Below, one piece after another: positions 9,848-64,000 of a stretch of 64,000 nucleotides of DNA (position 1 is its first letter; each line of letters begins with the position of its first letter). Under the pieces are notes generated by a model that did not search any database, had not been told where the DNA came from, and was given only the letters and a program-made list of their open reading frames with translations. The position numbers were made by a program, and so were the translations under genes. The stretch comes from Tetradesmus obliquus (taxonomy: Eukaryota > Chlorophyta > Chlorophyceae > Sphaeropleales > Scenedesmaceae), in contig CP126207.1 of NCBI GenBank assembly GCA_030272155.1, forward strand, positions 62,001-126,000, given 5' to 3'.

Positions 9848-10183
9848 CCACGCTGTGGTTCAGCCTGGTGGCTGTGGTCAGCATCGGCAGCCTCAACCTG
9901 TCACTGCTGGTCAACCCAGTGGGGCTGTACCAGGTGCGCTTTATTTTGTAGAGTCAAGGGTTTAGGTGTACCAGGTTGCAGGTTTCAAGGTGTAGGGTGA
10001 TTGATCACTGCTCTCACAGCTCAGCAGCCTCAACCTGTCGCTGCTGGTCAACCCAGTGGGGCTGTACCAGGTGCGCTTCGCGTTGTAGCCGCTACAATGA
10101 TTGTAAGTTGACTGGCTGGCTGTGGCTGCTGGACAGCAGCTGGGTTTGTGTGTCTGCTGGTCAAGCCGGTGGGGCTGTACCAG
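9848..10183 (+). repeat. Three copies of a transporter exon end with its 5' splice site
   Basis: The exon end encoding NLSLLVNPVGLYQ followed by donor gtgcgct occurs at 9848-9933, 10022-10070 and 10151-10183. The copies share the donor and the first intron bases. The second and third are 5'-truncated and lack a clean full-length exon. Only the first has a complete coding exon with a good acceptor (ttcacatatgcag). Confidence 0.85.
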
Positions 10184-13100
10184 GTGCGCTTCAGCTTGTC
10201 ACTCAGTGACACACAAGTTGTGTGGGTGGGCAAGTTGCTGATGTTTTCTCTGCGTGTGTGGCGTGGAGGCAAAGTGGATGTCTTGCGTGGGCTCCACGCC
10301 CGGTGAGGGCTTCATAACTGTTTACTGTTAGCTGTTAACTAATCACTGCTGTTGCCTTTTCTGTCATCTTGCTGTGTAACAAGTCCGTGTCCTGACGTGT
10401 AACTTACACGTGTTTGACGTTGCCGTGCTGCTGCTGCAGGTGGCCAAGCTGCTGGTGATCCCCTACGTGTGTGGGGTGGAGGCAGTCTGGATGGGCCGCA
10501 AATTCAGCAACGGCACATTACTGGCGATTGCGACAGTCATGGCGGGCGTTGGCGTAGTGTGAGTACATCATGGTTTGATGTTTGATTGTGGGTGTTGGGG
10601 TTTAGGGTGGAGGCAGTCTGGATGGGGCGCAAATTTATCAACGGCACGCTGCTGGCAATTGCGACAGTCATGGCCGGAGTGGGCGTTGTGCGAGGGGCTC
10701 AGGCTTTGGGTTTGAATGTTTTGTTTTGGTTATTGGGGTTTCTGTGACGTGAGTATGGACGGGGCAGCGACTAAATCAACTGGAGCGCACGCACACATGG
10801 GTTTGTGCCGGCTTGTGCGCGTGTTGGGTTGTGCGTGCTTGTGCAGATTGCATGCGCGTCTCGCTGTGTACATAGCTCACATGCGAGCGCTTGCGTGGAG
10901 TCCACGCGCGTGTCAGTCTGTATGCGCTTGCGGGAGGGCGCGCCAGCAAGGTTTTGTGCGCTTGTGCAGAAATGCGCTGCATGCTTGGCACGCGTGTGTC
11001 GGTTTGTGCGCTCTTATCAGTAGTGGGTGTGCATTTTGGTTGGTTTGCGCTTGCAGGAGTGCATACTCACGTACGTTTGTGCGCGCTTCTGCAGTGCATG
11101 GCCTCGCCTGATTTCGGGCTGGAGTCCACGCGCGTCTGGTTTGCGCGCCCGTGCAGGAGTGCATGCGTGTCTCGACTCTGAGTTGGGCGCGCATGTGTGT
11201 TGAAGCCCGCGTGCGACTCGGCCTGCACACGCCGTGTTCACTGTTTGCTTGAAGCGGCTTGAAGTTCGATCGCATTTCGATATCCATGAATGCGCTGGAG
11301 TGCACACGCATCGGATTGTTGCGCGAATGTGATGGAGGTGTGAGCGTGTCGCTTGTGCGCAGCTGTGCTAGCGTGTGCGCGAGTGTTAGATTGTGCGCAC
11401 CTGCCATGAAGGGCGCGCACGTGTCACACGTGGCACGTTGTGTGCGCCTGCGGTGCAGAGGGCGCACTGGCCCGTTTGTGCCACAGACGCGCAGCGCGCC
11501 TGCGCTTGAGGGTGCGCGTGTGTCTCTGTGCACTGTTGCTGTGTTGTTTTGTGCATGTCGCTTTATGCGTGCTTGCCGGAGTGTGTATGTGCCTGTTTGC
11601 GTGCGCCTTTGCATGAGTGGACGCACGTGTCGGCTGCGCGCGCGTTGGTCACTTGCTGCTGCTATTGCTGCTGCTGCTGCTGCTGCTGTTGCTGCTGCAG
11701 GACTGTGAATGACCTGAACTCTGGAGCCACACAGCTGATGGGGGTGGTGCTGGCGGCAGTATCTGTAGTGGCTAGCGGCAGCCAGCAGATCCTGTGTGGC
11801 AGCATGCAGCGCGCCTACAAGCTGCAGAGCCACCAGCTGCTGGCAGCGACAGCAACCGTGCAGGTGAGTAACACGTGCTACCTGCGTCCAACACGCGCTG
11901 ACTGAATTGCACTGGATGCAGCTGTACTCGCACAGTCATTTCCTATGTCATTGTCAAATGCGCCAATTGTGTGTATGCTTCGACGCAATCGCTTGTGTGC
12001 GCGCATGGGTCTGCTTCATGTAAGTATAGCAAGTGTGCACACAATGAATACTTCAGTGTGCGCGCGCTGTAGTGTGCGTATGCGCGTGCGCGCGTGCGTG
12101 CCACGAATTGCAGCATGTGCGTGTGCGGTTTCAGAGGTTTGCTGGTGCCTGCCTGCATGCGCATTTGTTTGCTTGCACGCACGTGAGTTTAAGTGCATGT
12201 GCATGTCTGCGCGAATGTGCTTGCGTGTGCCTACTGGTATGCGCACGCACGAGTGCGCTCTAGTGACATGCTGCTCGTGTGCCTCGAGTGCGTGCGCTCA
12301 CGAGCTCGCTTTTGCGTGCGTACATGTGCTGGTGCATGCGCGCGCGCTCAGCGAGTCACATGCATGCTCCTGCATGTGCGTGCGCATCTGTGTGACTGGT
12401 TGTGCATGACGCGCGTGTGTGCCGCACCGCATAGCGTGTGCGCGTGTGTGTTTTGCACCTCGTGGGGCGCGCGCGCGCGCGCGCGCGCTCGTGTGTTTTG
12501 CACCTTGAGGGGCGTGCGCGCGCGTGTGTGTTGCACCTCGAGGGGCGCGCGCGTGTTTCGCACCTCGTGGGGGGTTGCATGCGGTGCTGCGTGTCCCTGT
12601 GTGAGCGCCTGATCTTGTGGGCGCTGGCTTGCAATGTCAACGATGTCTTCCGGCTGGCTTGCACTGCTGTACAACCTACCCTCCTGCAGTCCTGCTGGGC
12701 GGCCCCCCGGGCATGTTGTTGCTAGGCCACCTAGTTTGATGCCTGGGTCACATGCCACAGTGTTTAAACACTCACCCTGCTGACGTGCAATGCTGCTGCT
12801 GATTTGCGGTGTTGTTGTCCCGCGGTTTGTTGTTTGCAGGGCGGCATGCTGCTGCTGTTGGGGCCCTGGGTGGACGCATGGGTCAGCGGGCGCTGGGTCG
12901 GCAACTATGTCATGACCATGCCAGCGCTGGGCGTGCTGATACTCAGCTGCGCGTTCAGTGTGGGCGTCAACGTCAGCCAGTTCATGTGCCTGGGGCGCTT
13001 CTCCGCAGCCACATTCCAGGTAGGTTCAAAACATGTCACTATCATGTGTTATAGCATTGTGCTGTAGCAGGGCGTTGCAACTGTGCGTTCAACGCGGGCC

Positions 13101-13998
13101 TGAGCCGGTTCATGTGCCTGGGGCGCTTCTCTGTAGCCACATTCCAGGTACGGTTTTGCAACAGCTGTTAGTGCTTCAAAACCTGGAATAACAATTTATT
13201 ACATCGGTCTTTTCTGACTGCACTGCTGTGCGAGCAACAATGTGAACCAGTTCATGTGCTTGGGCTCCTCTCCCGCAGAGGCGCAGCCACATCTGGGCCA
13301 CAAGTGGGCTGAGCAGCGGCTGCGCAGTGTTGCTATTTTTCAATACACGGCCGCAAGTGCTTGGTCACACCAAGACAGTGACACCAGACACGTGTTGCTC
13401 AATAGCGATGGATGATGACCTATGTGTTTTATGTCATTCTGCAGGTGCTGGGCCACACGAAGACAACGCTGCAGCAGCTGCTGGTGCTCCTCATCAGCTG
13501 GCTGGTGTAGGCCACTTCAACCTGTGTGCGCTACTGATGCTACTGCTGCTGCTACTGCTGTTGATGCCGCTGTAGGTATTGGGCCACACCAAGACAGTGC
13601 TTGTGTTGTTGATCAGCTGGCTGGCGCTAGGCGAGGCCATGAGCCTGCGCAAGGCAGCAGGCATGGCGGTGGCAGTGGCGGGCATGATTGCATACGGCTA
13701 CTGCGTCAGCGCTAGTAGCAGCAGCAGCAGCAGCACCAGCAGCGCTAGCAGGAAGACCAGCAAGCCAGGTGGTGGTGCGGCTGGTGCAATGGAGCTAGGG
13801 CAGCAGCAGGGAGGCGGCAGCACCAGCAGCAGCAACAGAGAGGCTGGGGTTGCTACTGCTGCTGGTGGCGATGAGGAGGCTGGGGAGTCGTTGCCGCTAC
13901 TGCGCAACGTGAGCCGCGAGCATGCTGGGTGGGCTGGCGAGTCAGTGGTGGTGGTGGCAGTGGGGCAGGAGCAACAGGAACGGAGTGCTCAAGTTTGA
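9848..13998 (+). CDS. Nucleotide-sugar / triose-phosphate-type transporter (DMT superfamily), 5' incomplete
   Basis: Exons by splice consensus and phase: 9848-9933, 10440-10558, 11701-11863, 12840-13019 and 13576-13998 (stop TGA). Phases match at every junction. The product is a multi-pass Golgi/ER antiporter of the TPT/NST family, closest by eye to plant UDP-rhamnose/galactose and UDP-xylose transporters. Supporting segments: SLNLSLLVNPVGLYQ, VAKLLVIPYVCGVEAVWMGR, GSQQILCGSMQRAYKLQSHQ, GPWVDAWVSG, NVSQFMCLGRFSAATFQ joined directly to VLGHTKTVLVLLISW, and GMAVAVAGMIAYGYC. The tail after the last helix is Ser/Gly/Gln-rich and cytosolic-like. About 320 residues are present; the first two or three membrane helices (roughly 80-90 residues) are not found. 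The first exon begins in phase 2, so it needs an upstream exon. The gene may be truncated by the neighbouring LINE, or its start may lie beyond it. Substrate cannot be inferred. Confidence 0.85.
10604..10691 (+). repeat. Duplicate of transporter exon 2 (3' part) inside the following intron
   Basis: Sequence encoding VEAVWMGRKFINGTLLAIAT repeats the 3' two-thirds of exon 10440-10558 with a few substitutions. It has no matching acceptor directly upstream and ends in gtgcgagg, so it is probably an intronic relic. Confidence 0.85.
10790..12600. repeat. Long alternating purine-pyrimidine (GT/GC)-rich intron sequence
   Basis: Introns around exon 11701-11863 are dominated by TGTGCGCG, GTGCGTGC and related alternating purine-pyrimidine strings. 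The purest tract is (GC)11 at 12467-12488, flanked by repeated modules of the type gtgttttgcacctcgtggggcgcgcgcg (about four around 12448-12570). Such sequence is a classical Z-DNA former. Open frames through this region are composition artefacts. Confidence 0.75.
13071..13510 (+). repeat. Partial copies of transporter exons 4 and 5
   Basis: Copies of the exon-4 end (reads LSRFMCLGRFSVATFQ and similar) lie at about 13079-13148 and 13218-13285. Copies of the exon-5 start (VLGHTKT) lie at about 13357-13385 and 13443-13510. The intact exon 5 starts at 13576. Copies keep the exon-intron borders but contain stops or shifts, for example TAG soon after the 13443 copy. Confidence 0.8.
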
Positions 13999-17132: not shown

Positions 17133-17180
<48 letters not shown>

Positions 17181-20100
17181 CGCCGCTGTTGTAGTGGATG
17201 CCTTGCACGGCTTCTCCATCACGCCACAACGGGTGCTTGAGCTCATCCTAGAGCACATCTTCAAGAAGGCAGATGGCGAGCACGAGTAAGGCGCATGTTT
17301 AGTGCTACTCGAATGTGTCTGTGAGCCTTAACAAGTTGGTGTCTGCTACGACAGTTAGAAGAACAGAGACAACTGCAGAGTTTGCGCATGTCCTGAGTGT
17401 TTGCAATTTACTCGGCATGTCCTGAAACACAAGAATGATGTTGTCGGTGCCGGGCAGTGCTTGAAGGCCCGTGCTCATGTATGCATGAGCCTTGTAAGTA
17501 GACATTGTTTGCCTTGCTGGGGACTGGATGTTGTAGCTTGCATTTCTCACCAAACACTACACGTTGTCGCTCATAAGTTCACAATCCACATTCCATACGC
17601 ATTTCAAGACGACTGCTTTCACCAAACAAATTAGTTTGCCTGTGTCCTGCAGGTACACTCTGGGGCTCTTAGTGCTGACTGTGCCTGTCTCTGCCACCGA
17701 GGATGTCAAGGCGCTGTACGAGGCGGCGCCAAAGCGGGTCCTGGAGGTGCGGCCGCTGCACGCAATAGTATTACGCCAACTACATCTAGTTGAAAACCTT
17801 GGCAGCTACAAAACCTGAATATCAAGCGGTTTCAGATGAATTAAATGTATATCGGTGCACACGGTGTACACATGTAGGTTCAGGCCGCACTGTTGCTCCC
17901 GCTGCGCAGCGCATGCTGCTGCAGCTGCAGCAGACCTGAGGGTAGCTATAGGCACTAAAAGCCTCAGGCTGTTGGACCGGCTTCGAGTGCCTAGGCTAGC
18001 CCAACAGTGTGGCATGCACCCACATGCGTGCATTGTGTGCAATGATGCGTTCAAACGATTGTGCCGGAGCCGGGCTGACCAGTGGGCGGTCATAGAGTAA
18101 GGAGGGGCACCCGGTGTTGGCACTACGCTGCATGTATTATCTGAGTGCGTGACGATTTTGTTTTAATTTTGAAACAAAACATTTACCAATGCGCAGCATC
18201 AGGGCGAGGCACAGGAAAAAGGGATATGTGTAACTAGTTAAGGCGGTTCAGCAGTGGACAGAGGGTACGAGTTACGCGCTCGAAACAATATATATAAACC
18301 TTCACGAATGGTTTACACAGGGAACATGAGGCGGTTGAGATGATTGTGGTCGTGAAACTGAGCATCAGCCTTTTTTGCCACAACTGTGGCTGCAGCCACT
18401 GAATAGCGCAATGGTTGCCGGCAGCGCAGGGACGTGTTTTCAACAGTTTTACTGATTTCATAGGCAGTATGCAAGTTGGGCGTGGTGCTGTTATGCCTTC
18501 TCTGCAAGAAGGTGTCAACAGTACTGCGTAGTACAGTATATATACTGTATATATTGTACAATATATTGTCGGTACTGTTGTCAACACGCCGTGTTGTTGA
18601 CACCTTCTTGCAGAGAAAGCATAACACAGTGGCAGCCAGTGTCACACTGCAGGACGGTCGTGCAAGCCATATCAGCCAGCTTAAGCCTGCGGCAGCTTCA
18701 TTTTGTAGAGCTTGCAACCTTCTCACTTGCAATAGTGACATGGAGTAGCCGTTGCCAGACAACGCGAGACCTGGCTTGTCTCGGACAAGCCAAGGCTTGG
18801 CTAGCAGTATATCCTGCTATATGGTTGCCCACTATGGGTCATGCCATGACGGTTAACTCCGCGGCATACAGGGGACAAGTCGCCGCTGAGCAACGCCGCA
18901 TTGTGCATGTTTGCATATGTGTTTTATATGCGCGGTTGCCGTGGAGGCAAGCTCCGTCACCTGACAAACATGCGCTGTTGCTGTGCTGTTTGTCCGCTGC
19001 AGAAGTTCCCTGGCCTGCTGAAGGATGGTGCCATGCCAGAGGTGCTCATCGTGTCAGAGCCGGTGGCCGGGATGTGTGACCACTTCGCAGCAGCGCCCGA
19101 CATGTGCCCTATGGGTGACGCTGGTGCGGAGGGCGAGCAGCAACAAGAGCACGTGCACCTGGGCATGGATGTGGGTGAGTGCCAAACTGTGACATGTGGG
19201 TGACTGCCAAACTGCCAAACTGTTACATGTGGGTGAGTACTAAACTGTGACATGTGGATGTAGGTGAGTGCTGAACTCTGAAATCCGCTGCACTCATTGA
19301 TGACCTCATCACTTGTTCAACCCAAATGTTTTATGCTTAGGTGCCGCACCCGATGTTTGTTGAATCCCCTGTTTTCGTTTATAACTCATCGTCAAATTAC
19401 CTATCCAGCAAGCGTTATCCAGCCATATCAATTAACGCCATCGTATATTGATTATTGTTGTATTAGGTCATTCAGCCATCAGTTCTGGAAATCTATGATG
19501 TTCACACCAAACTGCCGGCCGTCGTAGACTGCAACATGCAAAGGTCCGAATGCATCTTGCACATACCTAGCACAAATGATTGCGTTGTATGTTGCAATGA
19601 TGCAGCATTCCGCCCAACCTCTACAACCCTGCGACTTGCTTGCCTCTGTTGTGTTCTGCCACAAGGTGACGGCACCACCGACTGCTGCCTGATGACCACC
19701 GAGCACCAGCCCTCTGCGGGCGGACGCAGGGCTATGCGGGTGCTGGGCGCGCACGGCAACTCGCACCTGGGGGCTGCGGATGTGAAGAAGGCGCTGCTAA
19801 ACAGGGTGCTGGCAGAGGCAGGCGTGGAGGTGCCACTGGAGTTTGCAAACCAGTTCTGGGTGAGTGCAAGACATGTGTTGCCGGCAGCATGCGTTGCTTT
19901 CTTTTGTTGTGTGTGTTTTGCACGGCAGCATGTGTTGCTTGGGCAGGCATATGCTTGCATGGCATGTGTTGTGGGCGAGAACTGTGCGTCTTGCGATCAA
20001 CAGTGGATGGATGTGCTGGCCAGGGTGGCTATAGGTTTAGCTAAAAGGTGCTGTTTGGGTGCCTTGAGAGCCTCAGCAGATGCTAGTCTGGTCGCCAAAT

Positions 20101-23100
20101 CAGGAGGTGCGGGGTAGGTTGACTAGGGGATTTGGGTGAGGATGCCTAGGGGACATGCGAGTCTGGGCAGTGGAGGTGCCACTGCAGTTTGCAGACCAGT
20201 TATGGGTGAGTGCAACACGCTGTTTCGTACAGATGTGTGCTGGCAGTATCTCTTAGTGCCTTGAAGCAGCTCTTGGTGGGTGTACTGGCAGAGGTGCTTG
20301 GAAAAGTGGTCAGGGTGCCTTGTCAGCCTGAGCACGTGCTAGTCTATTTGCGCAGAGGGGTGCTGGTCAGGGTGGCTTGGGAGATGCTACTCACAGATGC
20401 CTTAGCAGTGCTGGGCAGGGTGGCGTGGTTTTGTTCGGAGCAAGTTGGGATGTGAACCTTGGTTATCACTTCTGGAGCCGGTGTGTGCCTTGCTGCTGCA
20501 GAGGGGTGTGACGCGGGCCATGGAGGCGCTGTCACGCGGCTGAGCAGCATATGATGCCTGGACGGCCACAATGTGTGACTGCGTTGTCTTCAACCACTCA
20601 ACGTATCACGTGTGGCGTTGTTGTGTGCCTTGCTGCTGCAGAGGGGTGTGACGCGGGCCATGGAGGCGCTGTCACGCTGCGGGGCAGCAGATGATGCCTG
20701 GGACGACTGGGAGGGCATCACGGACTCCGAGGAGATCCGGGAGTGCCTGGGGCAGATCGTCATCACACGGCGCATGGTGCACGAGGCGGCGGCGGCCTTC
20801 AAGGATGCCTTCATACAAGTACGTACACGCAAAAGCACTTTGGCTGGCGCGTGTGATGCAGCGCCCACATGTTACCACCACTCTTCTGATGCGGCTTTCA
20901 AACATGCTGTGTTCAAATTTTGTTTTGTTTTTCCATCCTCAGCATCCTCAGCATCATGTTGTGTTTTGCCTGTGCTGCAGAGCATCCGCAGCACGCTGGC
21001 TGTCGCCAAGGTGCAGGCGGCCGAGGTGACGCACGTGGTGCTGATGGGCGGGGGCTCGGAGCTGCCATGCGTGAGGCAGGCCATCAGGTATGCAAGTGCT
21101 TGCCAATGCAACTAATTGATGTCCTCTTACAGCAGCACGAACATTGACAACATAGAGTTGCGTGTTGTGCTGGCATGATGCATGGCCTCCACGTCATGCA
21201 CATGGTGATCATGCTGAGAACTGTGAGCTACTCATGAGTGAATGGCAGGTGTACTGGGGCAGACCGCACGACTACTTGCGTCGTGCGCTGTTGATGCAGC
21301 ATGTTCTTCAAGCCTTCAACCACGTCATGTCACCCATACATGTGCCACATGCACGGCGTGCAGCGTGTCTCTGCAACTCTCTTTGTGTGTCCGCACTGCA
21401 GCGCCGTGCTGGGCGATGTCCGCATCACAAAGGGCCAGGGAGGCGGCTCCACCCAGATTGCACGGGGCGCTGCGGCATACGCGCTGCAGCTGCTGGAGCA
21501 GCGTAGGAGCCAGCGCGGCGAGCAGCCAGCGCGCGAGCAGGCGCCGCTGCAGCTGGGCCGTGTCACGATGCCTGTTGGCCAGTACATCTGCACCAAGGTC
21601 ACCTTCAGGTGGGAGGCTGTGCTAAATGTGCTGTATGTCACAACACCTGTTGGCCAGTACATATGTGCTGTACATATGTGCTACATGTCTCAACTCCCGT
21701 TCGCCAGTACATATGCGCTGTACATTTGTGCAGTATGTCACCGCACCTGTTGGCCAGCACATCTGCACCAAGGTCTCCTTCAGGTGCAAGGCTGTGCTGG
21801 TACTAGCAGAATAATAGTGTGCAGATGTTGCTGCTATAATGTTGCGCGCGGCATGCATGCTCCATGTGCATAGTGGGTGTAGCATTAGGGTTTGGGCACA
21901 GTACTGTGCCATGCACCAGCGCATGCAGTGCAGCACAGCGCCCAGTAAAAGCAGTTGATTTGATTGGTAAACATTTGTACACTGAAGACACAAAACAACC
22001 ACGCCTAAGATGGGCGCACGGCCCCATTTGTGCCCTAAGAGACAAGCATACATGTGGAGGGCACGGCACCATGGGGCAACAACTCGGTCACACACACCGC
22101 CTTCAGGCCCAACTCACCCAGAAGCTGCAGAGCTGCTTGTTTATTAGCCACTCACTCACTCACTCACTCACTCACTCACTCACTCACTCGCTCACTCACT
22201 CACTCACTCACTCACTCACTCACTCACTCACTCACTCACTCACTCACTCACTCATCCACTCGCTCAATCACTCATTGTTGAAACGCCAGCCTTACGCTGT
22301 GCTGCATGTGCTGCGCGATGCACTGCAGGGGACACTGCCTGCATCCCGAGCGCCAGCATCCCGACTACCCCATCAGCGTGGCGTACCTGCAGCAGACGCT
22401 AAAGCGCTGCCTGGTCACAAGCGACCCCGAGGAGCGTGCTGCGCAGGAGCAGGTGAGGTGCTGCTTGTGAGGGGTTGTTGCATGGAATCGGGCCCACTTG
22501 GACGACCCGAGCCACCCCAATTCTGATTTCCTGTTATGTTGCTTTGTGCTGCAGCTAGCCATGTCCCGTGTTTCCTCGCCCGTAGCCAATGGTCCCTTGC
22601 GTGGTGTTGAGCATTTGACAATCCAACAAATACAACGCAACTCTGCCTCTGTTGTGCTTTGATGCAGATGCTGGACGCAGTGACAGCGCACTACGAGAAC
22701 ATGGAGGACCCCTGGGAGCCGTGGGCGCCGATGCCGAAGCGCCTGCCGGACTTCGAGGTGTACCTGCCCCTGATCGATTGCACCGCAGTCACGCCCACAT
22801 CGCCGGCCGCCATCACCTTCATGCCCTGCGAGAGCCAGCAGCGCAGCTACACCATCTCATTTTACGCTGCCGACGCGCTGTTCAGCGACTTCTGCTACAT
22901 CGGCGGCCGGCGCGTGGAGGTGCCAGCAGCAGCAAAGGGCGCGGCAGCAACTGCAGCAGCGCTGACTGTGGTGGGTGAGGTGTGGGTGGATAGGCAGCGC
23001 CTGTGCTGCACGGCGCGGCTGCCCTCGGGGCAGGAGCTGCCGGTCAGGACGGTGTGGGACAAAGACGCTGTGCAGCGGCGGCAGCGGCGGTACCGGCAGG

Positions 23101-26459: not shown

Positions 26460-27368
26460 AGTGTCACCAACGGCTGCCAGGGCGTCATGCTGACCATGCC
26501 CTTCACCATAGCTGTGTACATGGTGCGCGGCTTCCTGCAGCAGCAGCAGCGCTACGAAGGTGCATTCCTGCAAGGCCAGCAGCTGCAGCAGGGCGGAGGA
26601 GGACATGGTGCAGCAGTTGCAGCTGGCGTTGATGAGCAGTTGGTGGGGCAGCTGACGGGAGCGCTGGTGAGTGATGCGGCAGCTGTTGTGTGCCTGTTGC
26701 TTTGGTTTTGATGTGGACATGTTTCTGTGGGTTGCTGTGGATGAGCAGTTGGTGGGGCAGCTGACAGGAGCGCTGGTGAGCACTGCTGCTGCTGTCAGTG
26801 TGCATGTTGCTTTGTGGGTTTCTCTGGCAGGGATGTTGCGGTTTTGCTGTTTGTGTGAAGGGTGAGCCATGGTGGTGATGCTGACCATGCCCTTCACCAT
26901 AGCCGTCTACATGGTGCGCGGCTTCCTGCAGCAGCAGCAGCAGCACCACAAATGCACCTTTCTGCAAGGCCAGCAGCTGCACAGGGCGGAGGACATGGTG
27001 CAGCAGCAGCTGGCGTTGATGAGCAGCTGGTGGGGCAGCTGACTGGGGCGCTGGTGAGCTGCCTGCTGCCTGCTGCTGTTGCTTGGATGGGCTGCCCTGA
27101 TGTGTTTTGTTTTGGGTTGTGCCGAGGTGGTCTCTGAGGTCCTGTGCTATCAAGGTAGCTCAACACATGGGTCCAGAGATGTGCCCTGCAGGCACAGCAG
27201 CAGCCAGCGTTGACGGGCGCTGTAAAAGGCAGCCCAGTCACGGACGGAGCAGCCATTGCTGTGATTAGCTGCTGGGCCAAGCTGCGTTTGACATGCCAGC
27301 CAGACTCCTGCAAGCAACCTGCCCAGCCGAAGCATCTGCCAGGCCACCACCGGCTGTGCTGGCCAATG

Positions 27369-27399
<31 letters not shown>

Positions 27400-27538
27400 C
27401 CGCGGTGTACAGCCTGAGCCAATTCACAACCAGATGGGCTGCTGTGCCAAGCTGCCATTGTCATGCTGCTCAGTGTCCTGCAAGCTTGATGCGCCTGCTG
27501 CAGCAGATGCTAAGTTGCCAAATGCTATGCCTAACAAG

Positions 27539-27586
<48 letters not shown>

Positions 27587-28135
27587 CCGCCGTGTACAGC
27601 CTGAGCCAGTTCACCACCAGCTACGCCTGGGGCCTGGCCTCAAACAGGATAGGGCGGAAGGTGAGGGTGAGGGTCTGTTGGGGGTTTGTAGTGCTGAACC
27701 TTCAACCCTCAACACAATCAGCAGGTTCACCACCAGCTATGCATTGGGCCTGGCCTCCAATCGAATAGGATGCAAGGTGAGAACAGCAAAATATAGATTG
27801 ATGCTGGCTTGCATACGTCACAGTCGCGTGTGGCCAGCACTGCATAGCAGTGGGCAGCCGCAATGGGCAGCAGCAGCAGCAGCAGTGCCACTTCACCTCC
27901 AGCTACGCCTGGGGCCTGGCCTCAAACTAAATAGGGCGCAAGGTGGGGCTTGGGGTACAGGCGCCACTGCCGCCGGGCCGCTGTGGTTTGTTACTGCGTT
28001 TGCCGTTTGCGGCAACGTGCTGGACCTTTCCCTGCGTTGGGCAACTGCGCAGCCTATCTTGCTGCGAGCGCTGCGCAGCTGATCTTCTCTTTCTCTGTCA
28101 TCACTCCTTGCTGATGTCACTTTACCGTGCTGCCT

Positions 28136-28166
<31 letters not shown>

Positions 28167-28507
28167 GCTGTACAGCCTATCATGCTGCTGGGCTCAGCCG
28201 CAAGCGCTGCTGGGCTGCTGTGGTTCGGTGCAGCTGGTAGTTACGCCTCAGCAGCCGCGTCCAGGGCAGCAGCAGGGCTGCTCAACGGCATCATCGTGTG
28301 AGTGCTGCAGTAGGTTGTGTATGTTTGCCTCTCGTATTTGGTGTAGCTGCCTGGCGAGGAACTAGGCCTTAGCAGCAGCAGCACATACGGCAGCAGCAGG
28401 ACATTGAAACAGCATCATTGTGTGAGCCGCGGCATGATTGGCGAGTGCTGTGACGCCCTCAAACAAGGCCGTGTCATGTCCTACATGAGCCTCGCACCTG
28501 CTTATCA

Positions 28508-28562
<55 letters not shown>

Positions 28563-28659
28563 GCCGCAGCAGCGCCTGGAAGTGCATGATTGGGGAGTCG
28601 TGTGACCTGCCAACACAAGGTCATGTCATGTCCTACATAAGCCTCGCACCTGCTTAGCT

Positions 28660-28692
<33 letters not shown>

Positions 28693-29339
28693 AGTGCCTG
28701 GAAGTGCATGATTGGGGAGTCCTGTGACCCCCTCACACAAGGCCGTGCCATGTCCTACATGAGCCTCGCATGGGGCCTAGGCTGCATTGCCGGGCCAACA
28801 ATTGGAGGCCTGCTGGCTCAGCCTTGTGCCAGCTGGCCTGGCATGGCTGGGTGCAGTACTGACGGCTTGCTGCGTGTCAGGTGCGCGGATTTTTCCAGCT
28901 GCTGTTTGTATGTTTGGTAGCAGTCTAGCTCAGGTTGTGTGTTGGGTTGCTGTCATGTCCTACGTGAGCCTTGCTTGGGCTGCATTGCGGGGCCAACAAT
29001 TGGAGGCTTACTGGCTCAGCCCTGCAGCAGCTGGCCAAGCATGGCGGGGTGCAGTGCAGATGGCCTGCTGCGAGTCAGGTGGGTGCATGGATGCACGATC
29101 TGCAGTGATTTTGCCGGTTGTTGTACAACAACTACATGTAGTGCCTGGTGCTAGCGTGGGGCCTGGGCTGTGTGGCTGGCACAGCAATTGGCGGCTTGCC
29201 CTGGCACAGCCCTGCTTGTCATGGCCTTTGGACAATGAGCTGTGCTGCAGATGGCCTGCTGCAAGCTAGGTGGGTGGGGCGTTTGCACAGTCTGCAGTAG
29301 TTTGGAGCCGCTTGCACATGTGGCCCTTACGGCTTCTGC

Positions 29340-37360: not shown

Positions 37361-37625
37361 TACTTCCGAAGTAAAAGTTCAAAGTTTGAAATGCAGGGTG
37401 ACACACGCTAATGCAGGATGTGTTATAAAAGGATATGCTCACCATCCTGTCCTTGGTGAGCTTGGTGGTCATGCCGCGCGCCACCTGCGGCAGCGGCGCG
37501 TCTGCTGTGGCCACCTCGTGCACTGTCTGCACCGCGCACGCGCCGCCATGCATGTGGTCGACTGCGGCACGCAGGTTCACCTGCAGCAGCAGCAGAGGCA
37601 GGGGTGGCAGCAGCAACATGGGTGT

Positions 37626-37657
<32 letters not shown>

Positions 37658-42300: not shown

Positions 42301-42703
42301 GCAAGCCCGCTGCACGCCGGCGCAGCTGGATGGAGCGGCCGTACCTCAAGCAGAAGCTGAGCGACGGCGCAGCTGCGGTCAAGGTGCGGATAGTCTGGTG
42401 AAGTGCAGCCCTGTTTGCTATTTGGGGTTGTCACATATAGTGATTGTACATGTGTAGCTGCTTGGGAAGGTCTGCCTTTGTATCGGTGCGCTGTCACCTG
42501 CCGCTGCCAGCGCAGATTCACTTTCTGTGCTGTGTTTGTTTGGCATCATCCCTGCAGCTGCTGATGACACTACATGCTGCTGCTGCTGTTACTGCTGCTG
42601 CTGCTGCTTTTGCTGACACCTGCAGGCGCTAACCCCTGCTGCTTCCGACGCGATTACTCTGGTGGTGACTGGCAGCATCCAATACTGCTGCACCTGAAAC
42701 AAG

Positions 42704-42741
<38 letters not shown>

Positions 42742-42832
42742 CTGACGCTTGCAGGCGCTAGCCCCTGCTGCTTCCGACGCGGATGCTCTGGTGGTGACTG
42801 GCAGCATCCAATACTGCTGTACCTGAAGCAAG

Positions 42833-42888
<56 letters not shown>

Positions 42889-48790: not shown

Positions 48791-48952
48791 GTGTGAGTTA
48801 TGCTTCAAGCGAGGCTGCTGCTGCTGCTGTTGATGAGAATGGTGCACAGCTGGAGTTGGCTGATGGTACGGGCACACGGCAGCGGCTGCGAGGCTTTGAG
48901 CAGGTGCTTGGCAGCTACCAGGATGCTGCAGCAGCGCAGCTGGACGCTGCTG

Positions 48953-48983
<31 letters not shown>

Positions 48984-49560
48984 GGGTGGGGGAGGGGTTG
49001 CGGGGGAGGCAGCAGCGTGGGTGGCGTTTGCGGCGATTCGCAGGAAGCAGCAGCTAGGGGTGTAGGTGTGAGCTTTATGCTTCAAGCGGGGCTGCTGCTG
49101 CTGCTGCTGTTGATGAGGATGGTGCACAACTGGAGTTGGCTGATGGTATGGGCCCACGGCAGCAGCTGCGCGGCTTTGAGCAGGTGCTTGGCAGCTGCCA
49201 GGCTGCTGCTGCAGCGCAGCTAGACGCTGCTGCTGCCGCTGCTGCTGCTGCTGCTGCTGGTGCTGCTGCTGGGGGTGGAGATTGGGTTGCGGGAGAGGCA
49301 GCAGCGTGGGCGGCGTTTGCGGTGATGCGCAGGAAGCAGCAGCTGGGGGTGTAGGTTTGATTTATGCTTCAAGCTGGTGTGGGACGCTGCGAGGCTGTCA
49401 GACGCTGCTGCTGCTGCCCGCGATGATGCTGCGCGACTGGATGCAGCTGCTGTGTTTCAGAGCACGTTGTTTACCTGCTAATGGAAGTGACAGCAGCAGT
49501 ACGCACTGGTCTAGGGCTCCGCTGGGCGTGAGACAGCTGCACTGAGGAGCAGCATCAGCA
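48785..49560 (+). repeat. Two and a half duplicates of the MYCBPAP-like C-terminal end
   Basis: The block encoding LRGFEQVLGRYQAAATAQLD through the Ala/Gly run to RRKQQLGV and stop recurs at about 48790-49065 and 49075-49354, each ending in its own TAG, with a truncated fourth at about 49360-49460. Period is about 285 bp. Copies keep an open frame, so they could serve as alternative ends if spliced to. Confidence 0.88.
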
Positions 49561-54829: not shown

Positions 54830-54845
54830 GGCAGCAGCAGCAGTG

Positions 54846-55600
54846 GGTGTGGGTGTTGGTGTGGGGGTGCTGTCATTGCTTCTCTCAAGAAGCCTCAGCA
54901 TACGGCTACCATGGTGCGCAGTGGTGCACAAATGGTGCCCAAAGACAGTGTGGTGCATGTGGTGTGGGTGTGGGTGTGCTGCGCTGTCAGGGCTTCCTTC
55001 CACAAGTACTGCAGCATGCAGCTACACATGGTGTGCCGTGGAGCGCATATGGTGCCCGTAGCATGGTTATGAGTGAGTCAGTGCGGGTCTTGGGGTGGTG
55101 TGGGTGTGCAGCGCTGTCATGGCTTTCCCTCACAAGCACCAGAGCATACGCAGCCACACTTGCTGATGGTTGTGAGTGGGTCAGTGTGGGTGTGGATGTG
55201 CTGTCATTGCTCCTCTCACAAGTACCAGAGCATGGGGCGCCACATGGTGCGCTGTGGTGCGCAGAGGATGTTTGTGACTGGGTCAGTGTGGGTGTGGGTG
55301 TGGGGGTGCTGCCATGGCTTCCTCTCAAAAAGCCTGAGCATGCTGCGCAAGTATGCACAGTGGCGCGCAATGGCGCCCAAAGACGGTGTGGTGCATGCGG
55401 TATGTGTGTGGGTGTGCTGTGGTGTCAGCGCTTCATCTCACAAGTACCAGAGCATGCGGCTACACATGGTGCGCAGTGGTGCGCAAATGGTGCTCAGAGC
55501 ATGGTTGTGAGTGGGTCAGTGTGGGTGTGGGTGTGCTGCGCTGTCATGCCTTCCTAAGACAGGTACCAGAGCATAAGCGGCCACACATGCATCACAACCT
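54846..55600. repeat. Tandem repeat block A, units of about 110-130 bp
   Basis: About six units share gtgggtgtgggtgtgctg(c), then a short stretch ending in tctcacaagtaccagagcat, then acatggtgcgcagtggtgcg. The units vary in length because internal GTGGGT runs differ. The block directly follows the stop of the Q/A-rich gene. Confidence 0.8.
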
Positions 55601-55639
55601 GCGGACGTCATCACATCGGTGACACGCGCACAGCTATGT

Positions 55640-56020
55640 GCTCTGTCCTGCATTTGCATTGATCGCTGTCTGCTTGAATCTCTTGCCAAGCGCGCTGCTG
55701 CTGCAGATTTTCGGCACACAGGCGCATGTGTGCTGCTGCCGCGGCAGTTTCGCAGGCACGCATGCACACGTGGGCTGCTGCCGCGCAGCAGGTCTGCCCT
55801 GCACTTGCATGGATCGCTGTCTGCTTGGATCTCTTGGCAAGGGTGCTGCTGCAGCGGCGGCAGTTTCGCAGGCACACAGGCGCATGTTGTGCTGCGGAGC
55901 AGCGTATCAGCGGTCCTGCACTTGCATGGATCGCTGTCTGCTTGGATCTCTTGGCAAGGGCGCTGCTGCATTCTTCAGGGGCACAGGCATGCGTGTTCTG
56001 CTGCCGCGGAGCAGGCAAGT
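55640..56020. repeat. Tandem repeat block B, three units of about 120-150 bp
   Basis: Each unit contains a variant of ctgcacttgcatggatcgct, then gtctgcttggatctcttggc, then a GCTGCTGC stretch and a cgcaggcacacaggcgcatg-like end. Starts are near 55650, 55798 and 55916. Open frames on both strands here are repeat-driven. Confidence 0.8.
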
Positions 56021-56379
56021 CTGTACAACAGGCGAATCTGTACAACAGGCCTGTTGGTTGCTTGGTTGGCTGGGTTCAGGGTTTGACGCTCAAAGCAACA
56101 TGAATCCCAATGTTCTTGGGATGATGTGAGAGAACCAGCCGCAATGCCTGTCACAAGGCGCCGCCAGATTTGCAAGGCGCCTGCTGCTGTCTCAACAGTG
56201 CATGCGTGCATGCTTCCCCCTCTCCCTGTGACTGTGTGTCTGTGCCTTTTGAGTGCAGCGCACATGCAGCATGCACCCCAGCTTGGTTCGTAGCATGTGG
56301 TGGAAAGCATGCGGGTACGCCGCGTGTGGTTTGCCGCATTTGGTTGATTGCATGCGGGTTCATTGCATGTAGGGCTTCC

Positions 56380-57010
56380 TATGTGGGTGTCACTTGTGTG
56401 TCACTTGTGGGTGTCACTTGTGTGGGTGTCACTTGTGTGTCACCTGTGGGTGTCACTTGTGTGGGTCTTCCTGTGTGGGTGTCACTTGTGTGTCGGTGTC
56501 GTGAAGTGGCAGCGCCCCGGCATGTGGTGTACCATACATACATCGCAATGCTTGAAGGTGCGCAGAATTTGCTTTTTTCATGCTAGACTGTCAATCTTTA
56601 CATCGGCCGTCCCTCTGTCCCACATGTCTTCTGGGCTGACTGAGACATGGCACACATGTGACACGCTTGGACATTGGACGCTATCTATTGCCCCGTCATG
56701 TAGTACAGCATACATACATCGGCCGGCCCTCTCTCCCGCATGTCTTGTGGGCTGCAACGGACATGGCACAGAATTCACACACCTGTACATGGCCATTCCG
56801 TAGCACACTATCTGTTGCTACACCTGTTTTATTGTGCCTTGAGCACGGCACGCATGCAGCATGCGCAGCATACTTACATCGGCCGCCCCTCTCTCCCGCG
56901 CGTGTCTTCTGGACTGACTGGGACATGGCACAAATTTGACACGCTTGGACATGGCCATTCCGTAGCACGACATCTGTTGCTGCACCTTGTTATTATGCCT
57001 TGATCCATGA
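56380..57010. repeat. Tandem repeat block C (GTGGGTGTCACTTGT and TACATCGGCCG families)
   Basis: From 56380 to 56500 gtgggtgtcacttgtgt iterates. From 56595 to 57000 a second unit, with tacatcggcc(gt), ctctctcccgc(a/g)tgtctt, gggacatggcaca and cacgcttggacatggccatt, recurs near 56595, 56712 and 56875. The phrase gacatggcaca also appears in the following block D, suggesting common ancestry. Confidence 0.75.
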
Positions 57011-57228
57011 GCCTTGTCTCACTCCTTTGTGGGTGGGCCTGTGGCCCTACTTTGGTAACTGGTCATTATGCCTTGAGCACAGCACGCATGCAGCATGCGC
57101 CCGAGCTTGTCAGCGCTTGTGCTTTGACGGTGCGGCCCACTGCATGTGGTTTACAGCAGTGTGAGTTTCATCACATGTGGATGCACCGCATCTGGAATGA
57201 ACGCATGGGTTATCACATGTCGGGTTAT

Positions 57229-59235
57229 TGCGTGTCAGTGCCATGACCCATAGCAGTGCCTGGCAGGCGGTGTACATTACGTACTGCCGTCCCCACCTCC
57301 CGCCTGCCTTCCGTGCTGCCTTGCAATGGCACACTATCTGTTGCTGCATCTTACTAGTAACATCATGCGTGCAGCTGCAGGGCATATGCAATTTTTTATG
57401 TGTATCATACCCACTGCCTTTCCTACCTCCTGCCTGCATCTTGAGCTGCCTAGGGCACGGTGTACAATTTTTTTTATAGAGGATAGTTACATGTGGGTCC
57501 TGGCACCATCTTGGATGGTATGAGCCACAACAGGTTGAAGACAAGGTCTGAGACCAGAAAAGGAGAGTGAGCACCGACAGAGTGTACAATGGCACGAAAG
57601 TTGCTGCGCTCCCACATGGCATGCTGTCTGTGCTGCAGCCTGTTGCTGGTTACCCTGTCAATGTGTGAGTTGTGGAATTTGCACGACTAAATTGCAGCTT
57701 TAGCGCGGTGGTGCTGTGTTCTGTGTGGGTATATCGCGTGTCAGTGCCATGACTTGCGGCGGCGCCCGGCAGGCGGTGTACCATACACATCGCCCCCCCC
57801 CCCCCCCCCCCCCTGCATGTCTTCTGGGCTGCATAGGACATGGCAGCTATCTGTTGTTGCACCCTGTCAGTGCTTACCACAGTGTAAGCCGCTTGTCGGG
57901 CATGCCCGGATCAAGTTCAGCTGTGGCGCGGTGGTACGATGTTCCGTGTGGGGTTATCGCGTGTCAGTGCCATGACCCGTGGCGGTGCCCAGCAGGCGGT
58001 GTTTGTTACAAATTGCAGCTTGCCTTTCTCCCCCCTGCCTTGTGGACTGCCTTGGACATGGCACACTATCTGTTGCTGCACCAAGGTGTGAGCCGATTAC
58101 ACAGGCTGAGGAGCATGCTGAAGTGCAGCTCAAGCGTGGTTGTTGCAGAGGTGTGGGCATCATGTGGACGTATAGTGTGTCAGTGCCATGACTTGTGGCA
58201 GCATTCAGCAGGCGGTGGGGTATACATCACTATTCACTGCCCTGCCTCCCTCCCACCTGCCTCCTGGGATGCCTTGGACATGGCACGCTATCTGTTGCTG
58301 CACCCTGTCAGTGCTTACCATGGTGTAAGCCGCTTAAACAGGCTGTGTGGATTTGTGGGGCATGCACGGTTCAAGTTCAGCTGTGGCGCGGTGGTACGAT
58401 GTTTCGTGTAAGGTAATCGCGTGTCAGTGCCATGACATGGACAGTCCCCAGCAGGCGGTGGGTGTACATCACTAGCCAACTCTGCCCTGCCTTTCTCCCT
58501 CCTGCCTGTTGGGCTGCCTTGATGATGGCACACTATATGTTGCTGCATCCTGTTGGCAAGCTGCGGTAAGCTGCGGAGCATGCATTGCTGAAGTGCAGTT
58601 GTGGCGCAGTTGTAGCACAGGTGCCATGGGAAGCGGAGGGTCCCTTTATGTGAACTGTCAGGTTTAGGTTCCGTGTATCGCGTGTCAGTGCCATGACAAG
58701 GGCGGTGCCCAGCAGGCGGTGCACACCACGTGCTGCCCTGCCTCCCTCCCTCCCTCCCACGTACTGCCCTGCCTTGTGGGCTGCCGTGGACATGGCACAC
58801 TATCTGTTGCTGCATCCTGGTGGCAAGTTGCGTTGGGCGGCGGGGCCTGCACGGTTTTGACAGAGCTGCAGCTGTAAATGGGTTGCAGCAGTGGCGTTTT
58901 GTGGGTTTATCGCATGTAATGCAACATTCAGCATGCGGTGACCTTCACACATCGTGCCCTGCCTCCCTCCCACCTGCCTTGTGGGCTGCCGTGGACACGG
59001 CACACTATCTGTTGCTGCATCCTGGTGGCAAGCTCTGTTCAGATGTGCAGCATGCACGTTTAGCAACTGCGCAGCGCAGCTGTAACAGAGATGGCATGTG
59101 GTCTATCGCGTGTCAGTGCCATGACACAGGCAGCGCCCAGCAGGCGGCGTTCATTACAAATCATTCTGCCTGCCTCCTGCCTGCCTGTTGGCTGCCGTAG
59201 ACATGGCACACTCTCTGTTGCTGCACCCTGTTGGG
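57229..59235. repeat. Tandem repeat block D, about eight units of 200-260 bp
   Basis: The landmark cgtgtcagtgccatgac occurs near 57231, 57737, 57960, 58177, 58420, 58681 and 59108, with a degenerate copy near 58911. Each is followed by an agcaggcggtg stretch, a pyrimidine-rich part (cctgcctccctccc), gggctgcc(t/g)tggacatggc and acactatctgttgctgca. No coding logic spans the units. A run of 21 C (57793-57813) lies in the second unit. Confidence 0.88.
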
Positions 59236-59298
59236 GACGTCATCCACAAGCTGCGGAGCATGCGCATCTTGGGCGCATTTTGGGTTGCTCCCCGTCTG

Positions 59299-59402: not shown

Positions 59403-59525
59403 CTCTGACGTGGCGGTGCCACCAGTGGCGGCGGTGTTGCTAGTCTCCCAGTGGGTCTGTCGGATCCCAGCAGTGTGCTGGGTCGACACGAGGTCCTGCT
59501 GGAGGCATCATGTAGGCTGCCAACC

Positions 59526-60084: not shown

Positions 60085-60092
60085 TGCTAACC

Positions 60093-61734: not shown

Positions 61735-61778
<44 letters not shown>

Positions 61779-61897: not shown

Positions 61898-61922
61898 GCT
61901 CAAGCACCCGTGTGGACGCCCG

Positions 61923-62001
<79 letters not shown>

Positions 62002-62451: not shown

Positions 62452-62528
<77 letters not shown>

Positions 62529-63060
62529 AGCTGCCCGGGTGTGGGCGGGACCTGGCTGGTGAGTTCCCGTACGCCAGGCGCTTCTCATTCTGCAAGGAGC
62601 ACCTCACCGCTGAGAGCATCGAGTACTACGGCATCACCTGCAGGTGCAATCTATGGCTTGCAATGTGTTATGTGCTGCTTTATCAAAAGGTTAGCAGCAC
62701 CTCACCGCTGAGAGCAACGAGTACTGCGGCATCACCTGCAGGTGCGCTGGAAATCCATCTTATGATTTTTTTCGGACATGTGAGGCTACCCTATGGTTCA
62801 GGTGCATGGGACACACTGTAGGCAGCACCTCACTGCGGACAGCACCAAGTCTCACGGCTTCACCTGCAGGTGCAATTTTCAGCTTCTGCAGAGTTTCTAT
62901 TCCATAACCTTATCAGAGGCTCTGGACCAGAAGCGCAGCCGTCAACTGGCACTCACTCAACTACCTGTTGATCCTGCTGCTATCGCTGCAGGTTCTGCCG
63001 TCAACTGGCACTCACTCAACTACCTGGGAAGACTTTGACGGCACGCAGCGCAGCTGCCGG
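61898..63060 (+). CDS. SBP-box transcription factor, partial or damaged
   Basis: Exon 61898-62253 encodes a long polyalanine/Ser region ending SAHWQSNCQ. Exon 62531-62643 then gives LPGCGRDLAGEFPYARRFSF and CKEHLTAESIEYYGITC. Together NCQLPGCGRDL and FCKEHL supply the Cys-Cys-Cys-His first zinc finger of the plant-specific SBP domain (typical pattern CQxxGCxxDL...VCxxH). The next exon start at 62992 fits phase and gives RFCRQLALTQL where SBP proteins have RFCQQCSRFHxL; the second Cys and the His of finger 2 are missing. The expected FDGTQRSCR follows only in another frame (from about 63028, stop near 63074). Algal SBP proteins include copper-response regulators, but no specific role is inferred. 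The gene may be broken, or a correct exon may lie outside the window. Confidence 0.75.
61925..61999 (+). repeat. (CTG)25, read as polyalanine in the SBP exon
   Basis: Seventy-five bases of pure CTG, in the GCT frame of exon 61898-62253, giving about 25 Ala. Unlike the other long CTG tracts of the window it lies inside an exon, not at an acceptor. Confidence 0.85.
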
Positions 63061-63087
63061 CTGGCACACTCATGACACTGCCTGCTA

Positions 63088-63145
<58 letters not shown>

Positions 63146-63704
63146 AGCTGCCCGGGTGTGGGCGGGACCTGGCTGGTGAGTTCCCGTACGCCAGGCGCTT
63201 CTCATTCTGCAAGGAGCACCTCACCGCTGAGAGCATCGAGTACTACGGCATCACCTGCAGGTGCAATCTATGGCTTGCAATGTGTTATGTGCTGCTTTAT
63301 CAAAAGGTTAGCAGCACCTCACCGCTGAGAGCAACGAGTACTGCGGCATCACCTGCAGGTGCGCTGGAAATCCATCTTATGATTTTTTTCGGACATGTGA
63401 GGCTACCCTATGGTTCAGGTGCATGGGACACACTGTAGGCAGCACCTCACTGCGGACAGCACCGAGTCTCACGGCTTCACCTGCAGGTGCAATTTTCAGC
63501 TTCTGCAGAGTTTCTATTCCATAACCTTATCAGAGGCTCTGGACCAGAAGCGCAGCCGTCAACTGGCACTCACTCAACTACCTGTTGATCCTGCTGCTAT
63601 CGCTGCAGGTTCTGCCGTCAACTGGCACTCACTCAACTACCTGGGAAGACTTTGACGGCACGCAGCGCAGCTGCCGGCTGGCACACTCATGACACTGCCT
63701 GCTA

Positions 63705-63762
<58 letters not shown>

Positions 63763-64000
63763 AGCTGCCCGGGTGTGGGCGGGACCTGGCTGGTGAGTTC
63801 CCGTACGCCAGGCGCTTCTCATTCTGCAAGGAGCACCTCACCGCTGAGAGCATCGAGTACTACGGCATCACCTGCAGGTGCAATCTATGGCTTGCAATGT
63901 GTTATGTGCTGCTTTATCAAAAGGTTAGCAGCACCTCACCGCTGAGAGCAACGAGTACTGCGGCATCACCTGCAGGTGCGCTGGAAATCCATCTTATGAT
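62525..64000. repeat. 617-bp tandem repeat carrying SBP exon pieces, runs off the window
   Basis: Landmarks such as ctgcagctgcccgggtgtgg recur at 62525, 63142 and 63759, exactly 617 bp apart. The first two units differ at essentially one noticed base (a/g near 62845 and 63462). Each unit contains a full copy of SBP exon 2 (62531-62643, 63148-63260, 63765-63877), two truncated copies of that exon's end (for example 62694-62740 and 62822-62868), the RQLALTQL exon start, and a CTG tract before the next acceptor. Confidence 0.95.

Follow-up and report, generated by a model that had tools for sequence, protein, structure and literature searches.

Repeated exon sequence beside the original, together with a splice site, is familiar from tandem exon duplication and from mutually exclusive exons, and introner elements are intron-related repeats that have been reported genome-wide in other algae. 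For the human genome, Pace et al. (2009, PMC2671141) give 824 probable repair-mediated duplications, which are ascribed to synthesis-dependent strand annealing. The introns of the green alga Tetradesmus obliquus are long, with a mean of 462 bp in Table 1 of PMC5966456, compared to 230-302 bp in four other green algae. The present analysis concerns a stretch of 64,000 nucleotides of T. obliquus (C17:62001-126000 of the 104.66-Mb genome G000, which comprises 17 contigs; hereafter the window), in which several genes carry local copies of their own exon ends, including the splice sites. Their best explanation, to which we assign a probability of about 0.5, is that short tandem duplications are tolerated across exon borders and that the exon part of the duplicated unit is kept alike while the intron part is lost. 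Exon-border duplications may help to explain the long introns of this alga.

Local direct repeats in the window and in other parts of the genome

There is ample evidence of short-range duplication in the window. Self-comparison after masking of simple sequence repeats yielded 132 match pairs, of which 127 are direct and 5 inverted; a single pair (1/132) is separated by more than 2 kb, and direct local repeats cover 22.7% of the sequence. The copies of exon pieces with splice sites that the initial annotation had reported for unrelated genes on both strands are therefore real. They sit in a TPT/EamA-like, an Hsp70-like, and an MFS-like gene, in a minus-strand gene at 36.8-38.2 kb, and in a MYCBPAP gene. 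The Pfam assignments are above the cut-off for MYCBPAP but below the curated cut-offs for the TPT/EamA-like gene and below the cut-off for the MFS-like gene (MFS_1, 3.6e-5); the Hsp70-like gene matches PF00012 with E=1.8e-12 on the spliced model.

The phenomenon is not confined to the window, as shown by self-comparison of twenty systematic 10-kb samples from C1-C16 (L009-L028). Two of these (L012 and L026; satellite-like, GC 0.48-0.49) were dropped from all gene analyses; among the 18 gene-bearing samples, local direct repeats are present in 11 and absent from 7. In the window and these 18 samples, repeats within 1 kb are direct in 292 cases and inverted in 8. The distance between neighbouring copies peaks sharply, with 83 of 152 pairs at 100-160 bp and 13 below 100 bp. 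Copy identities range from ~60% to 100%, which argues against an assembly stutter. Those copy-bearing genes that could be named are ordinary ones, and the presence of copies in unrelated genes, on both strands, and in many parts of the genome agrees with the earlier conclusion that the process does not reflect selection on one gene.

Sample L017, which contains a coding low-complexity repeat, was excluded from the identity distribution and from the analyses of codon position and synonymy, splice-dinucleotide retention, spacing and intron half, shared differences, and multiples of three; it was included in the counts of copy side and of pairs with at least 95% identity, the anatomy of 112 pairs, the 76 copy sets, the 24-base probes, and the patchiness per gene. 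The repeat itself (L017:7337-9894) is a valine-rich, coding-like minisatellite that differs from the exon-end copies. In the two satellite-like samples (L012, C2:4500001-4510000; L026, C14:1500001-1510000), direct repeats cover 74% and 67% of the sequence, many repeats are also inverted, and CTG arrays are absent; these AT-richer stretches are possibly centromeric or satellite DNA.

The copies are distributed unevenly among genes. The earlier statement that nearly every gene is affected fits the window but not the genome, where 7 of the 18 samples lack repeats and the copied fraction among the 29 genes with at least four scanned borders varies from 0 to 1.0 (4/4 borders; chi2 114, 28 df, P=2e-12). 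Expression level was rejected as the cause of this patchiness, because the copied fraction per gene is unrelated to codon adaptation (rho 0.00, P 0.99). There is a weak correlation between the load of trinucleotide repeats and the coverage by duplications (rho 0.47, P 0.049, 18 loci), which is a lead rather than proof; CTG/CAG tracts were rejected as the sole driver. Adjacent genes are often similar in copied fraction, which hints at regional differences. Arrays of CTG/CAG trinucleotides are very common in the window (62 arrays) and in L009-L028, and several sit directly before an acceptor (CTGCTG...CTGCAG).

Genome-wide searches for three gene families, whose thresholds lie above the short copies, were evaluated by eye. 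The Hsp70 search (65 matches, 73 of 79 candidates scored) revealed two clusters of overlapping copies (C17:238408-238865 and C13:4749955-4750450); the kinesin search (135 matches, 122 of 134 scored) revealed a single unambiguous cluster (C2:7430665-7431399) and possibly two more (C5:4052966-4053631 and C6:3346360-3347273). No close overlapping copies were found in the DEAD-box search (35 matches), in which 32 of 136 candidates were scored.

Copies of exon ends with their splice sites

Exon borders were predicted with our own small gene finder, for which Hsp70 exons served as training set and the samples as material for refinement, and whose output comprised 240 acceptors and 241 donors. It is imperfect: some decoys (as the copies are called in the following) were called exons, the MFS-like gene at 27-33 kb was missed, and adjacent genes were fused. 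The Hsp70-like, MFS, and MYCBPAP models of 2586, 2874, and 3492 bases proposed in the initial annotation were not recovered by this gene finder.

The excess of copies at exon ends is most evident from probes of 24 bases, for which a copy was counted if at least 21 of 24 bases matched within 800 bp. Of the probes taken from the last exon bases ahead of a donor, 33% have a local copy (n=212), versus 8% of those from the first intron bases (n=206); for the first exon bases behind an acceptor the figure is 26% (n=219), versus 15% for the last intron bases (n=168). Probes placed deeper into the intron from the acceptor gave 14%, 8%, 5-6%, and then 9-12%; background rates are 9% in mid-intron (n=1521, decoys included), 8% in sequence without a predicted gene (n=1806), and 10% in mid-exon (n=392). 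The chance expectation is close to zero, because none of 773 control probes had a copy at this threshold (3 of 464 in a looser, earlier control in which the same locus could be drawn). Since copies occur in every class probed, duplication takes place in all of them, with a clear excess (~3-4 fold) at exon ends.

The initial annotation had inferred a process that duplicates splice-junction segments. The enrichment of exon ends is in line with this idea, but duplications with the same unit size as those at the borders are found also in the middle of introns and where no gene is predicted, and one lies over a stop codon. It is therefore probably not the duplication itself that is junction-specific but the persistence of recognisable copies.

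Among 232 borders of each type, donor-type copies lie downstream of their source in 73 cases and upstream in 35, whereas acceptor-type copies lie upstream in 63 cases and downstream in 28, which places the copies mainly on the intron side. They preserve the exon-intron border, as noted earlier for the window: the splice dinucleotide (GT or AG) is retained in 150 of 177 copies (acceptors 64/69, donors 86/108), and 26 hand-picked pairs of 112 show the border kept. Copied donors match real donors in strength, and copied acceptors are slightly weaker (P 0.01). In the 112 pairs, median lengths are 55-60 bases for the exon piece and 9-13 for the intron part of the copy; homology stops within 12 bp of the border in 57 pairs and reaches the far end of the exon in 21. 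The conserved stretch consists of the exon end with ~6 nt of the donor, or of ~20-30 nt of the acceptor side with the exon head. At the far end, acceptor-type copies have no donor beyond control and donor-type copies have a slight excess of acceptors. Because far-end splice sites are little above control and few homologies span the exon, the copies are half-exons rather than exons. Coding-side copies were found at 8 of 22 predicted stops, several of which are doubtful, versus UTR-side (untranslated region) copies at 2 of 22; predicted starts have a copy in 1 of 24 cases. Given the doubtful stops, the arguments below draw on the stop codon of the ligase alone.

The copies and arrays of the window are listed below (window coordinates).

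9848-9933, plus strand: predicted exon of the TPT/EamA-like transporter (gene model, Pfam TPT below cut-off), source of the copied exon end
10017-10199, plus strand: two copies of the exon end of 9848-9933, at 10017-10078 (taken for an exon by the gene finder) and 10154-10199, each followed by GTGCGC (Lx 47 and 30, Li 8)
10474-10780, plus strand: exon end with donor at 10474-10642 and copy at 10605-10780, period 131 (self-comparison)
12975-13155, plus strand: exon end at 12975-13026 and copy at 13103-13155, period 128 (self-comparison)
19824-20218, plus strand: Hsp70-like gene, exon end with donor at 19824-19872 and copy at 20170-20218 (gene model)
20464-20701, plus strand: Hsp70-like gene, decoy acceptor with exon head at 20464-20561, upstream of the one predicted to be functional (20604-20701)
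21571-21798, plus strand: Hsp70-like gene, exon end with donor at 21571-21623 and copy at 21746-21798
26484-29081, plus strand: repeat cluster at 26484-27075, 27396-27956, 28432-28770, and 28746-29081, partly without a predicted gene (exon model uncertain)
30956-32619, plus strand: MFS-like gene, nine exon-head copies at ~193-bp spacing with ~110 bp of exon head each (exon by inspection, missed by the gene finder)
36666-38405, minus strand: predicted gene with copies at 4/4 scanned borders
40981-41322, plus strand: MYCBPAP, four copies of acceptor and exon head; in the model, the first is a short exon and the last the exon start
42610-43546, plus strand: MYCBPAP, acceptor-side copies at 42610-43099 and exon-end copies at 43126-43546
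44571-45256, plus strand: MYCBPAP, six copies at 117-129 bp spacing
46165-47409, plus strand: MYCBPAP, 8.7 units of 142 bp, each with exon end, donor, and intron
48626-49377, plus strand: ~2.4 units of ~280 bp
54846-59263, no strand assigned: further arrays at 54846-55970, 56598-57100, and 57216-59263, without a predicted gene
62535-64000, no strand assigned: tandem unit of 617 bp in 2.4 copies, 99.8-100% identical, extending to the end of the window; the least diverged array

In the MFS-like array, the heads are separated by ~80 bp, in which an intron end and AG are conserved, and the ninth copy continues into the exon body. The 297-bp spacer of the Hsp70-like pair at 19824-20218 has no other match in the genome. 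A (CACT)31 microsatellite lies at 22149-22274 in a predicted intron of the same gene, and the 617-bp array contains (TGC)21 tracts between its units as well as inner sub-repeats. Outside the arrays, an open frame of 1969 aa on the minus strand (3098-9007), within which no masked self-match was found, encodes an endonuclease/exonuclease/phosphatase domain (PF03372, E 2.7e-9), which we take to be of the type present in non-LTR (long terminal repeat) retrotransposons.

Divergence of exon and intron parts

The exon-derived part of the copies is much better preserved than the intron part. A recognisable intron part (z>4) is present in 28 of the 112 pairs and in 8 of the 32 with at least 95% exon identity, three of these 8 from the coding repeat of L017. 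The identity distribution of exon-end copies has its peak at 93%, whereas that of the few intron copies is flat except for ten at 100%. At 87-97% identity, there are 140 exon-end copies over 394 borders versus 18 intron copies over 284 (~5.6-fold), whereas fully identical copies number 23 and 10, respectively. Over 76 sets of at least three copies, with noisy sets retained, exon pieces diverge by 0.175 on average and intron pieces by 0.498; in the MYCBPAP array at 46165-47409, too, the intron part is more diverged than the exon part.

In ten hand-chosen arrays, for which the codon frames with the fewest stops were picked, mean divergence rises from 0.12 at codon positions 1-2 to 0.17 at position 3 and 0.22 in the spacers, and gaps amount to 0.006 versus 0.104. 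The contrast between exon and spacer is clear in the MFS, 46k, L023, and L021 arrays and present in 44k and 42k. Duplications that are alike over the whole unit, at 0-8% divergence, occur inside an intron (L025:7866-8102), across a border (L027:7480-7805), and in units 3-5 of the MFS-like array. The arrays span a range from alike spacers to spacers diverged to 0.4, with exon pieces that are not so diverged.

Decoys in two enzyme genes and a public gene model

Two genes provide an independent check of the gene finder. For the glutamate-cysteine ligase in L016, outside the window, the reasoning from reading phase in the initial annotation applies as well: the decoy-free exon chain comprises 1191 bases including the stop, and the decoy-skipped protein aligns without gaps over 396 residues to a solved chloroplastic ligase (two further hits are of equal lengths). 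It is 100% identical over 396 residues to a protein of Scenedesmus acutus and differs in one residue from T. obliquus OEZ85_002557, which places the genome in the T. obliquus/acutus complex. OEZ85_002557 is consistent with the proximal donor at L016 3273. By contrast, the public T. obliquus model OEZ86_012514 has 49 additional residues in frame, consistent with the copied donor at L016 3420 (region L016:3195-3420); they represent an exact read-through of the ligase exon via the spacer to the decoy donor. Judging from these sequences, OEZ86_012514 seems to be a gene model that was misled by a copied splice site, with a protein that is lengthened rather than truncated. The ligase gene also carries a copy of its stop codon in the 3'UTR (L016:5515-5589), in which, by inspection, only the coding side is alike and a splice site is absent. 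The model of oligopeptidase B (L023) contains two similar strands versus one in the solved structure, and the first, decoy-like copy is unaligned to that structure except for its last seven residues.

Origin and persistence of the copies

The copies would be explained by a mutational process that acts in many parts of the genome and makes direct, short tandem duplications, mostly of 100-160 bp per unit. If a unit lies across an exon-intron border (or the end of a coding sequence), the gene should still work, since the splice site touching the exon body is intact; the extra copy would remain in the intron as a half-exon, i.e., an exon end with donor or an acceptor with exon head, and further amplification of the units would give rise to arrays. 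Over time, the intron part of the unit would become unrecognisable, while the exon-derived part and the splice signal would stay mostly 87-97% alike through repeated exchange among the copies (gene conversion or unequal pairing), for which the selected functional exon and its splice signals may serve as a fixed reference.

Several observations favour this scenario, among them the direct orientation and preferred unit length of the repeats, the duplications that are alike over whole units, the position of the copies mainly on the intron side, and the range of spacer divergence among arrays. In 43 of the 68 exon-limited pairs (those spaced at most 200 bp), the spacing is less variable (128 +/- 26) than the spacer (72 +/- 34) and has little relation to the length of the copied exon piece (rho 0.26, P 0.09), as would follow if the primary quantity were the unit length rather than the exon piece. 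The exon-side breakpoint is common to many multi-copy clusters (exceptions: L016 minus 2273 and L027 minus 4219), and decoys share 44 differences from the functional exon versus ~7 expected by independence (29 pairs). Since these shared differences are not mainly at codon position 3 (17/39, versus 22/39 at positions 1-2), few of them should be changes of the constrained real exon. Spacing, common breakpoints, and shared differences therefore argue that whole units descended in tandem and that their intron part was lost later. An exchange process anchored on sequence under selection would fit the limits of likeness at the splice signals and at the stop codon of the ligase, where likeness on the coding side only is expected if the constrained part of the functional copy sets the boundary.

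Other points weigh against it. Gene models and codon frames, except those of the ligase, are predictions of our own gene finder, and in four of the ten arrays (GSH1, L028, L020, and L027) substitutions in the exon part are not slowed, or the contrast is reversed. Exchange as the preserving step is an inference. If the functional exon were the only template, no differences at codon positions 1-2 should be common to the decoys, but such differences make up 22 of 39, so exchange among decoys has to be assumed as well. Moreover, plain exchange would homogenise the spacers too; the contrast requires the added assumption that exchange ends once homology is lost. It is a tentative further step to regard the half-exons as a maintained, genome-wide class that is kept alike by exchange following the boundaries of selected sequence; by extrapolation, there might be thousands of near-perfect decoy sites, among which the spliceosome would have to discriminate by context alone.

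A different origin of the contrast, which we consider somewhat unlikely, is that the intron part was never copied, because the repair of intronic breaks (by synthesis-dependent strand annealing, with capture of nearby DNA) writes only an exon end with its splice site. The scarcity of recognisable intron parts among pairs with at least 95% exon identity, the 57 of 112 homologies that end within 12 bp of the border, and the identity peak of exon-end copies at 93%, which intron copies lack, are all compatible with such copying, as is the result that neither of two spacers searched has another match in the genome. However, a spacing that varies less than the length of the spacer and hardly with that of the piece, common exon-side breakpoints, differences shared among decoys, and arrays with intermediate spacer divergence speak against it, and there is no known reason for repair to end at splice sites or at a stop codon. 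An unlikely alternative is that the half-exons are themselves under selection, e.g., as alternative 5' or 3' splice sites that tune splicing or expression. The conserved stretch indeed looks like a splicing unit, copied donors are as strong as real ones, the public model OEZ86_012514 uses one of them, and differences between real and copied sequence are mostly at codon position 3 (54/70/159 at positions 1, 2, and 3). Selection on the decoys is also weakly supported by the synonymous bias of decoy-specific changes (63/145, or 43%, versus 27% expected; P=3e-5), but this bias may stem from older copies that record synonymous changes of the real exon; 80 of the 145 changes are non-synonymous, and 2 create stops. 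Furthermore, the weaker copied acceptors and a stop-codon copy without splice site do not fit a splicing function, and multiples of three are not overrepresented among the unit lengths (remainders 0/1/2 = 31/42/33, P 0.38), for which reason selection for in-frame isoforms was rejected.

Plain neutral tandem duplication followed by decay, in which border copies remain visible just because the exon of one copy is constrained, is disfavoured and quite improbable. It would account for place, orientation, and tolerance, and the numbers of fully identical copies at exon ends and in introns are not very unequal; by our reckoning, however, it predicts a contrast of about two-fold at most, far from that observed at 87-97% identity. 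Simple decay is inadequate also because duplications whose units are alike throughout, at 7-15% divergence, are still alignable and have a near-constant period. The frequency of tandem duplications of exon borders in this genome might suggest intron gain by tandem duplication. In that case, the 3' end of the intron should carry a copy of the upstream exon end, and the 5' end a copy of the downstream exon start. Among 181 introns, the reverse is seen: upstream-end copies lie in the 5' half in 29 cases versus 8 in the 3' half, and downstream-start copies in the 3' half in 19 cases versus 3 in the 5' half. Intron gain was therefore rejected as a general explanation and is very improbable. An assembly artefact (collapsed or stuttered reads) is barely conceivable: no support for it was found, near-identity over long units is present only in the 617-bp array, and most copies differ by a few to 35%, each with its own substitutions. 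The identical translation of spacer and decoy over 49 residues in OEZ86_012514 also speaks against it, although that record may derive from the same assembly. An introner-like shared element or filler from elsewhere was rejected because the two spacers searched have no other match in the genome, and a long target-site duplication because it requires inserted spacers, for which these two have no source. Conversion templated by mRNA was rejected because the 3'UTR beside the stop-codon copy is not alike (one case).

Implications

If tandem duplication across exon borders is the correct explanation, this easily grown alga would offer many natural tests of splice-site choice, in which donors or acceptors of similar strength share their exonic context, lie typically 100-150 bp from each other, and presumably only the one next to the exon body is used. 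Its genome would also provide a known selective boundary against which short tandem duplications and concerted evolution could be measured at base resolution. There is also a practical warning: gene models of Tetradesmus can mistake decoys for real sites, as in the ligase model with 49 extra residues.

Comparison with described systems

A description of exon-end decoys was not found among the top-ranked titles of a literature search whose scope left out preprints and most subscription papers, which makes it weak evidence of novelty; the accessible part of a report on Haematococcus mentions tandem repeats but nothing of this kind (PMC7617258). The closest systems known are the repair-mediated duplications of the human genome and intron gain by tandem duplication. 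The former (PMC2671141) resemble the algal copies in being short (up to 619 bp) and closely linked, and some of them copy exons, UTRs, or splice sites. As in proximal capture, donor and acceptor of the algal copies lie within 5 kb and the copies measure up to ~600 bp, in a search that was itself restricted to short distances. By contrast, those 824 events per human genome compare to copies at about a quarter to a third of the sampled exon ends in the alga, which differs also by direct orientation, a preferred unit of 100-160 bp, the formation of arrays, and exon-limited likeness.

Intron gain by tandem duplication likewise involves tandem duplication inside genes, and the case from potato crosses an intron-exon boundary (PMC4974935); the algal copies, however, adjoin their own border and not the opposite end of the intron. 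Introner elements are also intron-related repeats spread genome-wide, but the sequence copied in the alga is private to each exon, with no family shared between loci, as judged from two spacers and from the single pair among 132 in the window that is more than 2 kb apart. Tandem exon duplication has in common with the algal system that the copy lies next to the original exon and includes a splice site. It differs in that a whole exon with both splice sites would be copied, whereas only 21 of 112 homologies in the alga reach the far end, and the copies are half-exons. Arrays of near-constant period, such as those of 193 bp x 8.6 and 142 bp x 8.7, resemble minisatellites and other intronic tandem repeats in their head-to-tail arrangement, whereas the exon-limited clusters are spaced only roughly constantly. 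Unlike a minisatellite, the algal unit holds a splice site and an exon end, and many clusters have lost the homology of their spacers but kept the exon piece.

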